Positions 7,132 through 11,650 of a stretch of DNA of 11,873 bases are shown one piece after another. The position numbers were made by a program, and so were the translations under genes. This stretch comes from Campylobacteraceae bacterium (GTDB lineage: Bacteria; Campylobacterota; Campylobacteria; Campylobacterales; Sulfurovaceae). Location of the stretch: the NCBI GenBank assembly GCA_027002755.1, contig JALWZI010000251.1, forward strand, positions 1 through 11,873, written 5' to 3'. The notes under the pieces were generated by a model. It was not told where the DNA came from. It did no database searches and saw only the letters and a list, made by a program, of their open reading frames with translations. How positions within the stretch are numbered: the first letter of the stretch is position 1; each line of letters starts with the position of its first letter.

Positions 7132-8592
7132 CTAGAAACGAAGATGCCCCTCATAATAGGCCTTTGTCACAGGGACCATGAGCACTGTACCGGGCTTGAG
7201 CTCCAGGTGCTGCAATTGATTGGCGACGATGAGATCCAGCGGCGTAGCATGATACTGCCGGGCGACCTTTTTGAGCGTGTCGCCGGGCCGAACGATGTGG
7301 GCGATGAGCTTGGCGTAGTGTTTGCGGCGGTAGATCTGCTCCAGGGTCGGGGGGGTGTAGTAGGCCCGGTAGTAGGGCAACCGGTCGGCGGGGATGAAGA
7401 TCTGGGTCATCCCGATCTCCTCGCCGATATGCCCTCCCGCCAGATGGGGGTTGAGCCTGGCCAGACGCCCTACGTTCATCCGCAGCATCTCCGCGATCTT
7501 CTCCAGCGTCGTTCCGCCGTAGATATTGACCAGCACTTCGGTGTCGGGGAGGATCTCTTTGCTGATCTTGCGATCTTCGCGTTTGGGAGAGCTCTTGATC
7601 TTCTCACCCATCATCGAGAGCAGCAGGATCTTTCGCAGGTAGTTGCGGGTCTCTTTGGGGAGGTAGGCTCTGCGCTCGTCCATGAGGGTGGCAAAGTCGT
7701 CGGTTCCCGCCGCTTTGATCGCCTGCTGCAGCCTCCCCTCCCCGCAGTTGTAGGCCATCATCACCAGATACCATTTGCCGAACATCCGGTAGAGGGTCTG
7801 GATGTACTGCATCGCCGCTTTGGTGGAGGCGATGGGGTCGTAGCGCTCGTCCCGGTTCTTGCCCACCTTCAGATGGAAGCGCCGTGCCGTCGCCGCCATG
7901 AACTGCCAGAGCCCCGCTGCTTCTTTGGAGGATCTGGCCGTCGATTTGAAGCCCGATTCGGTCATGGACATGTAGATGAAGAGATGGCTCAATCCCCCGG
8001 AGCTGAGCAGATCTTTGAAGAGAGGGATGTAGGCCTTGCCCCGGCGGGTGGAGTTTTCGTAAAAGCGGCGGTATTTGGCTTCGTTTTTGACGACGAAGTC
8101 CTGAAACCATGGATCCCGGATATAGGTAGGGGCGATGTCGAACTCCTGCATCACGTAGCTGTAGCTGGGGAAGCGGGTTTCGAGGATGGAGAGGGCGTTC
8201 AGGGTAAGAGGAAGAGCGATAAGGCCCAGAAGGAATCGGCGACGAGAGAGAGGAGTGGGTAGTGGGTAGTGGGTAGTGGGTAGAGCTTTGTGAATGAGGA
8301 GTGAGGAGTGAGGAGTGAGGAACCGAAGTTTGGAAACTAGTAACGAGTAACTAGTAACTAGAAACTGAAACAGTCTACGTAGCGTGGAATTGCTATCCCG
8401 CGAATAAATGGAGGATTGAGAATTGAGAATTGAGAATTTCGGTAGGCGTTGCTTGGCAACGCTTCTATTAATCAATGACCAATGACCAATGACCAATGAC
8501 CGCGCCGCAGGCGCCCCCACTGCCGACTGCCGACTGCCGACTTCACTCAAACGACAAACGACAAACGACAAACGACGAAACCCCAATCTCAA
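7132..8592 (-). CDS. mltD: MltD-type membrane-bound lytic transglycosylase with two LysM domains; start uncertain
   Basis: The conserved protein runs from about 8250 to 7132. In maximal-frame numbering it has a hydrophobic export segment (116-136, SRRRFLLGLIALPLTLNAL), an SLT family-1 domain (about 195-335; catalytic Glu212 in MTESGFKS, then AAGLWQFM and AYNCGEG), and two LysM motifs (about 350-400 and 430-475; HIVRPGDTLKKVA). It cleaves peptidoglycan glycan strands in the periplasm. The frame stays open upstream through 340 bp of heptamer repeats and hairpins to a TTG at 8592 that overlaps the tatD TGA; a second TTG at 8586 has GGAG seven bases upstream. No ATG, GTG or TTG lies in frame between 8475 and 8154. 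Either about 112 repeat-encoded residues are translated, a rare ATT or CTG codon initiates, or the gene has lost its start. No lipobox Cys is present. Confidence 0.85.
   Translation of the reverse strand: MRLGFRRLSFVVCRLSEVGSRQSAVGAPAARSLVIGHWSLINRSVAKQRLPKFSILNSQSSIYSRDSNSTLRRLFQFLVTSYSLLVSKLRFLTPHSSLLIHKALPTTHYPLPTPLSRRRFLLGLIALPLTLNALSILETRFPSYSYVMQEFDIAPTYIRDPWFQDFVVKNEAKYRRFYENSTRRGKAYIPLFKDLLSSGGLSHLFIYMSMTESGFKSTARSSKEAAGLWQFMAATARRFHLKVGKNRDERYDPIASTKAAMQYIQTLYRMFGKWYLVMMAYNCGEGRLQQAIKAAGTDDFATLMDERRAYLPKETRNYLRKILLLSMMGEKIKSSPKREDRKISKEILPDTEVLVNIYGGTTLEKIAEMLRMNVGRLARLNPHLAGGHIGEEIGMTQIFIPADRLPYYRAYYTPPTLEQIYRRKHYAKLIAHIVRPGDTLKKVARQYHATPLDLIVANQLQHLELKPGTVLMVPVTKAYYEGHLRF
8251..8373. 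repeat. Heptamer arrays: GGTAGTG x3, AGGAGTG x3-4, AGTAACT series
   Basis: On the plus strand GGTAGTG repeats exactly three times from 8258, bounded by one-base variants. After a short break AGGAGTG repeats three times from 8297, followed by the variant AGGAACC. From 8332 come GGAAACT, AGTAACG, AGTAACT twice and AGAAACT. All units are 7 bp and share a purine-G-N-A-purine-pyrimidine pattern. The arrays lie inside the open frame upstream of the conserved part of mltD, where they encode no conserved sequence. Confidence 0.92.
8372..8405 (-). repeat. Dispersed hairpin repeat, copy 1 (CGxGGGATAGCAATxCCACG type)
   Basis: Read on the minus strand this 34-bp segment matches 11489-11521 with two substitutions and one 1-bp indel. 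The core is an imperfect inverted repeat with an AGCA loop; the other copy forms a perfect 8-bp stem. It directly follows the AGTAACT heptamers and precedes the ATTGAGA array. Near-identity over the whole unit in two distant, unrelated contexts marks it as a mobile or spreading palindromic element. Confidence 0.8.
8415..8438. repeat. Heptamer array ATTGAGA x3
   Basis: ATTGAGA occurs three times in perfect tandem (8415-8435) followed by ATT of a fourth unit. Same unit length as the neighbouring arrays but a different sequence. Confidence 0.9.
8444..8464. repeat. Hairpin GCGTTGC-TTG-GCAACGC between heptamer arrays
   Basis: A perfect 7-bp inverted repeat (8446-8452 with 8456-8462) with a 3-base loop; the stem extends by a G-T and an A-T pair on the outside. 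No T-run follows on either strand, so an intrinsic terminator is unlikely. It resembles a small palindromic repeat unit. Confidence 0.65.
8474..8501. repeat. Heptamer array AATGACC x4
   Basis: Four perfect tandem copies of AATGACC. The reverse complement (GGTCATT) is the same kind of word seen in cyanobacterial STRR heptamers, as I recall them. It differs by one base from AGTGACC-type words in the 633-709 tract. Confidence 0.95.
8502..8514. repeat. GC hairpin GCGCC-GCA-GGCGC
   Basis: A perfect 5-bp all-GC stem with a GCA loop, placed exactly between the AATGACC and ACTGCCG arrays. It is short, so chance is possible, but its position as a separator matches the hairpins at 8372-8405 and 8444-8464. 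Confidence 0.5.
8519..8542. repeat. Heptamer array ACTGCCG x3
   Basis: Three perfect tandem units (8519-8539) plus ACT of a fourth. Confidence 0.93.
8549..8576. repeat. Heptamer array AAACGAC x4
   Basis: Four perfect tandem copies of AAACGAC ending 12 bp before the tatD stop codon. Confidence 0.95.
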
Positions 8593-9359
8593 ACTCCAAA
8601 AAGCCGTCGGGTGTTTTCCCGGCAGATGGCGGTGAGCTCTTCGTAGGAGATTCCGGAGAGTTCGGCCATCTTTTGGGCGACGAGGGTGCAGTAGGCGGGT
8701 TCGTTGCGCTGGCCCCGGTGAGGATGGGGGGTCAGGTAGGGACCGTCAGTCTCGATGAGGAGCCGGTCTCGGGGGATTTGGGGATAGACCTCCACCAGCT
8801 TGCGGGCGTTTTTGAAGGTGATGACGCCGCCGATGCCGTAGTAGAAGTTGCGCTCGGCCAATTGGAGAAGCTGGTGATCGGCGTTGTAGCAGTGCAGCAC
8901 CCCGCCCCGCTCTCCGGCATGTTCTTCCAGCAGCGCCTGACAGTCCCGGCTCGCTTCGCGGATGTGGACGATGAGGGGTTTGTCGTGCTCCCCGGCCAGG
9001 GCGATCTGATCGACGAAGATCTCTTTCTGGATCCGCTTCTCCTCGGCGATCGCCTCTTCGCCTTCGGGGAGGCGGTAGTAGTCCAGCCCGCACTCCCCTA
9101 CTCCCACACACTTTTCGTGCCCGATATAGCGCTCCAGCAGCCCCCGGTCGTAGCGCCGCGCATCGTAGGGATGCACCCCCACGGCAAAAAAGATGTCGTC
9201 GTGACTCTCCGCCAGCTCCACAGCCCTGGGCAGCGTATCGGGATCGGCTCCGGGGATGATCCAGCGATTCACCCCCGCCGCCCGGGAGCGCGCCAGCACC
9301 TCCTCCAGATCTTCGGCATAACGGGGATCGTCCAGATGAACATGGGTATCGACGATCAT
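8589..9359 (-). CDS. tatD: TatD-family metal-dependent hydrolase (DNase)
   Basis: A 256-residue TIM-barrel metallohydrolase of normal TatD length. Metal ligands are visible: H6 and H8 in DTHVHLDD, Glu89 in GECGLDYY, H132 in VHIREA, H156 in LHCYNA and Asp205 in ETDGPYLTPH. TatD enzymes are cytoplasmic metal-dependent nucleases with 3'-5' exonuclease activity reported, linked to DNA repair or turnover; the exact substrate here is not determinable. The ATG at 9357-9359 has AAGGA eight bases upstream and a TATAAT box 29-34 bp upstream, so this is the first gene of the minus-strand operon. Its TGA overlaps the first possible TTG of the mltD frame. From memory the same gene heads the C. jejuni block (Cj0644). 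Confidence 0.95.
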   Translation of the reverse strand: MIVDTHVHLDDPRYAEDLEEVLARSRAAGVNRWIIPGADPDTLPRAVELAESHDDIFFAVGVHPYDARRYDRGLLERYIGHEKCVGVGECGLDYYRLPEGEEAIAEEKRIQKEIFVDQIALAGEHDKPLIVHIREASRDCQALLEEHAGERGGVLHCYNADHQLLQLAERNFYYGIGGVITFKNARKLVEVYPQIPRDRLLIETDGPYLTPHPHRGQRNEPAYCTLVAQKMAELSGISYEELTAICRENTRRLFGV

Positions 9360-11488: not shown

Positions 11489-11521
11489 ATTCGTGGGATA
11501 GCAATCCCACGCTACGTGACT
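11489..11521 (+). repeat. Dispersed hairpin repeat, copy 2, perfect 8-bp stem
   Basis: CGTGGGAT (11492-11499), loop AGCA, ATCCCACG (11504-11511), followed by CTACGT. It matches 8372-8405 (minus strand) apart from two substitutions and one indel. It lies 10 bp after the hotdog gene and could weakly terminate transcription, but no U-run follows, so a repeat element is the better reading. Confidence 0.8.
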
Positions 11522-11573: not shown

Positions 11574-11650
11574 CTCTCCTCACTCCCCATTCCCCGTTAC
11601 TAGTTACTAGTTTATAGTTACTCATTACTCGCTGCCGCCAACTCATTCCC
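11574..11650. repeat. Heptamer-phased tract at the 3' end of the polymerase gene
   Basis: On the plus strand, sevens from 11574 read CTCTCCT, CACTCCC, CATTCCC, CGTTACT, AGTTACT, AGTTTAT, AGTTACT, CATTACT, CGCTGCC, GCCAACT, CATTCCC. The complements (AGTAACT, AGTAATG, GGGAATG, GGGAGTG) match the words at 8297-8359. The stop and about the last ten codons of the polymerase fall inside it. Confidence 0.8.

Follow-up and report, generated by a model that had tools for sequence, protein, structure and literature searches.

Our data show that tandem arrays of many different heptanucleotide words populate a draft, Sulfurovum-like Campylobacteraceae genome (G000) and some of its relatives, with a 7-bp unit and a unit number that peaks at four, and that these arrays are linked to palindromes copying the ends of adjoining genes. 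The analysis began with a mosaic of arrays at positions 8254-8581 of an 11,873-b stretch (the window), which is the entire contig C251 of G000 (1.57 Mb, 300 contigs, 75.6% complete). Array and hairpin modules are shared between loci, the C-free strand of arrays tends to point inward from gene edges, and at one locus all units of an array have changed word in concert. We consider it quite possible, if short of probable, that templated copying of DNA at the edges of genes creates and renews such mosaics. To our knowledge, heptamer repeats occur in scattered bacteria and have no agreed mechanism.

Period-7 arrays and shared modules

An earlier note on this DNA had described the heptamer mosaic, suggested that some process holds the unit length at seven, and named a genome-wide 7-bp excess over many words as the test. 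We sampled every fifth contig of G000 (60 of 300, one of them truncated to 20 kb; 353,361 b in total) and called perfect arrays at a self-match run of at least 14. Period 7 accounted for 36 of 46 arrays and period 14 for five, compared with no period-7 array when each sampled contig was redrawn twice from a first-order Markov model. The closed, single-contig relative G020 (30 of 37 arrays in 400 kb) and G038 (26 of 32 in 296 kb) show the same excess. G010, a genome of the same genus with 34% GC and no match to the mosaic, has period 7 in only 3 of 16 arrays (244 kb). At a looser cut-off (run of at least 11; shortest possible span 18), the G000 sample contains 51 period-7 arrays of 22 words, which extrapolates to ~230 per genome. 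So sharp an excess across many words makes a common process behind the arrays likely, and supports the idea of a process that fixes the unit at seven.

With imperfect units allowed, four is the most frequent unit number in G000 (38 of 75 arrays), G020 (37 of 73), and G038 (21 of 58). Perfect spans at the looser cut-off fall at 28-33 nt in 23 of 51 arrays in G000 and 17 of 45 in G020, with 15 spans of 18-20 nt in each genome; two arrays are longer in G000 (36 and 66 nt) and none in G020. Long arrays also occur in G038 (58, 67, and 133 nt) and G010 (61 and 95 nt), so that the four-unit length is a strong tendency and not a law. The long G010 arrays repeat AACCAAT and stand in place of four-unit arrays. 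A four-unit mode is also reported in Xanthomonas and Nostoc (PMC4692102), and selection for G-quadruplexes, as proposed for GGGNATC repeats, might fix four units. For the arrays studied here this is very improbable: a G-tract is not present in every unit, since AAACGAC (four arrays of 29 nt), AAGTCGC (30 nt), and AATTCTC have no GG on either strand, and the first two are as long as other arrays. Because words without GG share the four-unit length, a G-quadruplex reason is not general.

The mosaic matches 63 places in G000, itself included, at an E value of 1e-5 or better (80 at E up to 10), and is matched in 47 of 150 genomes of the family (E 1e-4 or better) and in 9 of 13 genomes of the genus, G000 included. 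The same word order recurs elsewhere at 71-94% identity; recurring stretches include 175 nt at 84% on contig C168 of G000 and 231 nt at 78% in G086. Between arrays lie dispersed hairpins of the types GCGTTGC-loop-GCAACGC, GTAGCGTGGGATTGCTATCCCACG, GGGACTTCAGTCCC, and GGCGCC (identified by eye). At the orthologous gap beside tatD, G038 retains the three arrays nearest the neighboring MltD-like gene, and a single AAAATCC array makes up the rest; in G086 and G053 the arrays are combined differently, with the tatD-side array in common with G038; and in G020 the mosaic is mostly degenerate. The G038 orthologue of array 2 (Table 1) reads TGAGGAA x4 and keeps its right flank unchanged, a concerted word change in which G has become A in all four units. 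Some arrays consist of two units of one word followed by two of another, a trace of unit-wise homogenization.

These comparisons bear on two alternative origins. Although the window comes from a draft assembly in 300 contigs that is 76% complete, an assembly or amplification artefact is scarcely credible, because the pattern is present in the closed genome G020, and G038, G053, and G086 have mosaics in the orthologous gap beside tatD. Plain slippage, with arrays arising independently and the hairpins unrelated, is a published suggestion for the widespread heptamer excess (Mrazek 2007, cited in PMC4679880 and PMC4692102); the length of seven has tentatively been explained as the contact length of the polymerase (Mrazek 2007, as cited by MacGregor 2015, PMC4679880). 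Slippage would fit the two-plus-two blocks, which indicate turnover at the level of units, and the few long arrays, but we regard it as unlikely: the unit number peaks at four with no decay, array neighbors are common to several loci, and slippage predicts neither the abutting palindromes nor the inward orientation described below. Because modules recur elsewhere in similar order and orthologous gaps differ module by module, slippage in place is insufficient.

In the window itself, Tandem Repeats Finder (TRF) confirmed the mosaic, detecting seven arrays, every one of period 7 (Table 1). The words given by the earlier note are identical to ours after rotation; its copy numbers of 2-4 are replaced by 3.4-4.7. 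The hairpins it placed between arrays are also present, at three approximate positions determined by eye. Better-preserved copies of the hairpin A palindrome are found by eye at loci L002 and L091 and at window positions 11492-11515; this last copy and hairpin A are REP-like (repetitive extragenic palindrome) and GTAG-ended, one in each repeat-bearing gap of the window. A period-21 TRF row (8545-8594) overlaps array 7. Degenerate heptamer-like words (GTTACC, CTCCTCACTCC, and GTTACTAG) at 640-700 and 11580-11640 are probably decayed mosaics. Arrays occur in 141 gaps between predicted open reading frames (ORFs); because arrays can stay open in one strand, many clusters also lie within ORFs when these are called mechanically.

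Table 1. Positions of arrays, hairpins, and flanking genes in the window
Feature	Position	Strand	Basis and remarks
SLT + LysM (MltD-like) gene	7132..8592	-	Pfam; frame open through mosaic
Array 1, AGTGGGT x4.3	8254..8283	+	TRF, 100% matches; adjoins MltD-like gene; G038 counterpart altered at edge
Array 2, TGAGGAG x3.9	8295..8321	+	TRF
Array 3, AACTAGT/AGTAACT x4.6, imperfect	8335..8366	+	TRF, 88% matches
Hairpin A, GTAG-ended and degenerate version of dispersed GTAGCGTGGGATTGCTATCCCACG palindrome	8379..8402	+	By eye
Array 4, AATTGAG x4.6, imperfect	8407..8438	+	TRF, 88% matches
Hairpin B, GCGTTGC-TTG-GCAACGC, dispersed module beside arrays	8446..8462	.	By eye
Array 5, CAATGAC x4.1	8473..8501	+	TRF
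Hairpin C, GCGCC-GCA-GGCGC	8502..8514	.	By eye
Array 6, ACTGCCG x3.4	8519..8542	+	TRF
Array 7, CAAACGA x4.7	8548..8581	+	TRF, 96%; perfect to 8576; adjoins tatD stop codon
tatD (TatD-related DNase)	8589..9359	-	PF01026, E 5e-77; right of mosaic
Eighth array, GTTACTA x3.9, degenerate	11596..11622	+	TRF, 80%; another gap of the window

Palindromes and array orientation at gene ends

Across three genome samples and the window, 32 of 176 array-cluster edges abut the base of a hairpin, where shuffled sequences give an expectation of 2.3. Our first reading of these hairpins as native terminators was rejected, because many sit at starts and enclose the Shine-Dalgarno sequence (SD), start codon, and first codons of the next gene. 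Among gene starts with arrays, 19 of 42 have a palindrome with a score of at least 8 (2 after shuffling), compared with 10 of 537 starts without arrays (4 after shuffling; Fisher 3e-17). These 19 comprise 9 of 17 array-flanked starts in G000, 5 of 11 in G020, 2 of 7 in G038, and 3 of 7 in other genomes. The palindrome lies between array and start codon and copies the SD, start, or first codons of the gene; its left arm is at most 2 nt from the array end in 17 of the 19 and begins at the array’s last base in 12. In a wider, overlapping set of starts, 49 of 70 score at least 7 (shuffled 2.9), and in 29 of the 49 an arm extends past the start codon into coding sequence. Stops also have palindromes, at 7 of 79 array-flanked ends versus 17 of 910 others (p 0.0018). 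Genes with palindromes include tsaD, truB, a GHMP kinase (ispE-like), ruvB, hisA, lgt, and dxr (Pfam assignments).

We compared orthologues of three of these genes. Among 30 tsaD loci, all nine with a flagged array, together with L195, whose array is degraded, score 11-17; the other 20 score 0-7. The palindrome reads CGATACTCAGGAG...CTCCTGAGTATCG in G020 and CGATACTCAACAGGAG...CTCCTGTTGAGTATCG in G000 and G038, which have one more Leu codon. The copied arm thus tracks lineage-specific codons, the in-frame extra Leu codon included. We had chosen tsaD because G000 and G020 showed the palindrome, so eight of the ten loci lie outside that choice, some of the eight being close relatives of one another.

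For tsaD, truB, and ruvB together (90 loci, in sets chosen because palindromes had been seen there, with truB starts located by tblastn), 16 of 26 loci with a flagged array score at least 8, compared with 5 of 64 without (p 2.5e-7); all of these start-side counts share loci with one another and cannot be taken as independent. Judged by eye, two of the five palindromes lacking a flagged array (L195 and L233) lie beside degenerate heptamers and a third (L241) is a REP-like hairpin; the remaining two, L231 and L239, only reach the threshold of 8. Ten flagged arrays fall short of it: five with a score of 7, three with 6, one with 5, and one with 0. At truB, two different palindromes occupy one place within the genus, across the start in G053 and upstream of it in G000. 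The ruvB gene of G000 (L063:1937-2698) looks frame-shifted: its open frame is 273 aa versus 336-415 aa in nearly all listed relatives, and the second part of the relatives’ RuvB aligns to L063 in another frame.

Arrays also have a preferred strand. A C-free strand is present in 99 of 134 sampled arrays, while random 7-mers are 9% C-free and 9% G-free. With units read inward in multi-array gaps, start edges are C-free in 49 cases, G-free in 6, and both in 11; the stop edges are C-free in 26, G-free in 7, both in 18, and neither in 1. The inward C-free rule holds from both genes, and is therefore symmetric about the gap. The possibility that gene direction sets the array strand was rejected on single arrays, which between tandem genes are C-free in 19 cases, G-free in 25, and both in 10, and for which the C-free and G-free counts are 6 and 7 between divergent genes and 2 and 6 between convergent genes.

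Proposed templated copying and alternative origins

We propose that a 3' strand end at a gene boundary would fold back and copy a short piece of the gene’s own terminus, producing the palindrome. An array of roughly four, mostly C-free heptamers would then extend the palindrome, followed by dispersed modules, both arrays and hairpins, copied in from other places. The units of one array would be homogenized together, their number staying near four. We infer that fold-back is the cause, that the steps occur in this order, and that one activity performs both steps.

The mismatches between palindrome arms bear on the level at which the arms arise. Among 616 pairs, 27 are mismatched, of which six are G.U, 11 A.C, and 10 other. 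Selection for RNA pairing would tolerate G.U over A.C, so the lack of a G.U excess leans towards DNA-level template copying. Selection acting on RNA is nonetheless a possible, if rather doubtful, origin. In the mRNA, the G-free array would offer an unstructured site for ribosome standby or for the landing of S1, the palindrome would hold the SD in a hairpin, and selection would keep the two together as an element that controls translation. The enclosure of the SD by many start-side palindromes (by eye), a last unit whose sense strand lacks G in 61 of 70 cases, and the different truB hairpins of different lineages would all fit, and MacGregor 2015 proposes binding of S1, Csp, or Csr to TAACTGA arrays. 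Predicted fold stabilities in seven examples range from -8.2 to -27.5 kcal/mol. Those over the tsaD and dxr starts (-18 to -27.5 kcal/mol) should block translation, whereas other start folds are mild (-12.4 kcal/mol for truB of G000 and -8.2 kcal/mol for lgt). Along with the missing G.U excess, palindromes on the stop side and the lack of strand preference in single arrays between tandem genes argue against RNA selection, although an RNA role in some genes may exist.

Insertion of mobile small repeats into heptamer arrays, as REP/RAYT (REP-associated tyrosine transposase) elements or as hairpin nests like small dispersed repeats (SDRs), is decidedly unlikely. Dispersed GTAG-ended hairpins do lie between arrays, and Sulfurovum NBC37-1 is reported to carry REPs of both the GTAG and the CGTC type (PMC3733652). 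In Nostoc, SDR hairpins reportedly sit within heptamers. However, the Y1 transposase (PF01797) shows no association with the mosaic within the genus: it is present in four of nine genomes with the mosaic (G020, G038, G053, and G064, but not G000, G046, G070, G081, or G086) and in three of four without (G010, G029, and G076, but not G058). Drafts may miss Y1 copies (G000 is 76% complete), yet G046 is 99% complete, and a Y1/RAYT transposase as required machinery was rejected. REPs also leave arms copied from coding sequence unexplained.

Several points weigh against templated copying at gene edges. Starts have palindromes far more often than stops do, which is what a role in translation would lead one to expect; scores below 7 are found at 21 of the 70 array-flanked starts; and the ruvB start of L430 stands beside a perfect array and has no palindrome. 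Half of the edges at stops fall outside the C-free class, and a lone array between two genes does not obey the rule, as the strand counts above show. The mismatch counts (6 versus 11, p 0.33) are too small to argue strongly against RNA-pairing selection. An SD rule rather than annotation defined the gene starts, the comparison giving 19 of 42 used control windows of random length 15-35 nt upstream, some loci entered the set because they resemble the mosaic, and most compared genomes are many-contig drafts. Among candidate enzymes for the copying, one family was tested, the Y1 transposases, with the negative outcome given above.

It is conceivable, though improbable, that the arrays reflect a telomere-like healing of DNA ends, in which free 3' ends at gene boundaries would first self-prime, making a fold-back copy of the gene terminus, and next gain about four copies of a C-free 7-nt word, before two ends capped in this way are joined. 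If true, end healing would have left the heptamer repeats of many phyla as scars, and would explain unit length, four-copy quantum, inward C-free strand, and palindromes together. The four-unit mode, the inward C-free strand, and the fold-back copies are signatures that any mechanism must yield, and they can be tested in closed genomes. Copying of adjacent coding sequence might rewrite 5' gene ends, SD included, and so provide a route to new ribosome-binding sites.

Flanking genes and relation to known repeats

The earlier note’s placement of the DNA in Campylobacterota fits protein matches to two metagenome-assembled genomes (MAGs). Proteins from the fetched parts of G000 match those of the MAG Campylobacteraceae bacterium isolate M1 at 85-96%, while the better matches to Sulfurovum sp. 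MAG S141 are at 68-81% and others at 33-44%. In G000 the MltD-like frame runs open across the entire mosaic to a TTG overlapping the tatD stop, and it is likewise open across the different mosaics of G038, G053, and G086. The true start codon of the MltD-like gene is therefore uncertain; the mosaic part of the frame would read as a heptapeptide-like leader. In G029, a genome without a mosaic match, tatD and the MltD-like gene overlap at ATGA. No Rfam family matched the window above its gathering score.

Beyond the family, AATGAGG x3 occurs in at least 117 stretches, which among the matches listed belong to Clostridia, Bacteroidetes, Planctomycetes, Chloroflexi, cyanobacteria, and Spirochaetes. 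At these loci (L254-L370), array spans peak at 7n-1 (20, 27, and 34 nt), and blocks of one word are flanked by units that depart from it in a single base, often with AATT at an edge. Palindromes in a cross-phylum set of 117 loci, Campylobacterota included, were found at 12 of 388 edges versus 0.6 expected, and are partly terminator-like. In viral contigs, 20 and 27 stretches were obtained with two words of the vocabulary versus 3 and 3 with one composition-matched control each, which argues that the heptamer vocabulary is not random. Phages and plasmids as carriers were rejected, as only short matches were found, in 10 plasmid records and one phage record (longest 82 query bases at 75%). Array 5 has exact matches of 28-29 nt in plasmids of Rhizobium (four), Nostoc (one), and Serratia (one), and in Aphanizomenon phage CL131.

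The short tandemly repeated repetitive sequences (STRRs) of cyanobacteria are heptanucleotide tandem repeats, and the SDRs of Nostoc punctiforme, which may resemble the hairpins here, are reportedly short families of set sequence that form tiny hairpins inside heptamer arrays. Heptamer excess, four-unit arrays, and mosaics are already known in other phyla. Among top-ranked literature results we found no account of heptamer mosaics in Campylobacterota and no description of array-bound fold-back palindromes; a term search of PMC4060949 gave no hits. Heptamer excess had been reported for other bacteria (Mrazek 2007, cited by MacGregor 2015), and mixed heptamer words for Microcystis and some Bacteroidetes. 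Heptanucleotide repeats elsewhere, namely STRRs and the TAACTGA repeats of Beggiatoaceae, cyanobacteria, and Bacteroidetes (MacGregor 2015), share with ours the 7-bp unit and a mostly intergenic position, and are likewise of mixed words in some species, often near starts, and sporadic among relatives. What differs here is the presence of 22 words in one-fifth of a Campylobacterota genome, the four-unit mode, and the fold-back copies of gene ends that adjoin the arrays. By contrast, one word dominates in BOGUAY and an SD is present in about 10% of repeat regions (MacGregor 2015), and a table passage of that paper has TAACTGA sets of three units outnumbering sets of four.

The closest parallels in unit number lie in Xanthomonas, Nostoc, and Geobacter. 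The GGGNATC and GGGGA(C/T)T repeats of Xanthomonas and Nostoc prefer four units, as here, and their G-rich strand is reported to be coding after stops and non-coding before starts (Rehm 2015), which is the same placement as the inward C-free rule and suggests a shared process. Unlike those repeats, several of our words have no GG and should form no G-quadruplexes. Geobacter metallireducens has 49 dispersed elements of four tandem heptanucleotides, and another class with five; each class has one word, and regulatory RNA or regulator sites were proposed (PMC2700814). GTAG/CGTC REPs, short dispersed palindromes reported in Sulfurovum (PMC3733652), resemble the hairpins here, and hairpin A reads by eye as GTAG plus a palindrome, but the REP-like hairpins of this genus are modules between heptamer arrays with no link to a transposase. 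Finally, in quasipalindrome template-switch mutations (Monttinen and Loytynoja 2022, PMC8794818), a perfect inverted repeat is created or restored beside its template in a single event; unlike the cases described there, the palindromes here recur at gene edges and are bounded by heptamer arrays.

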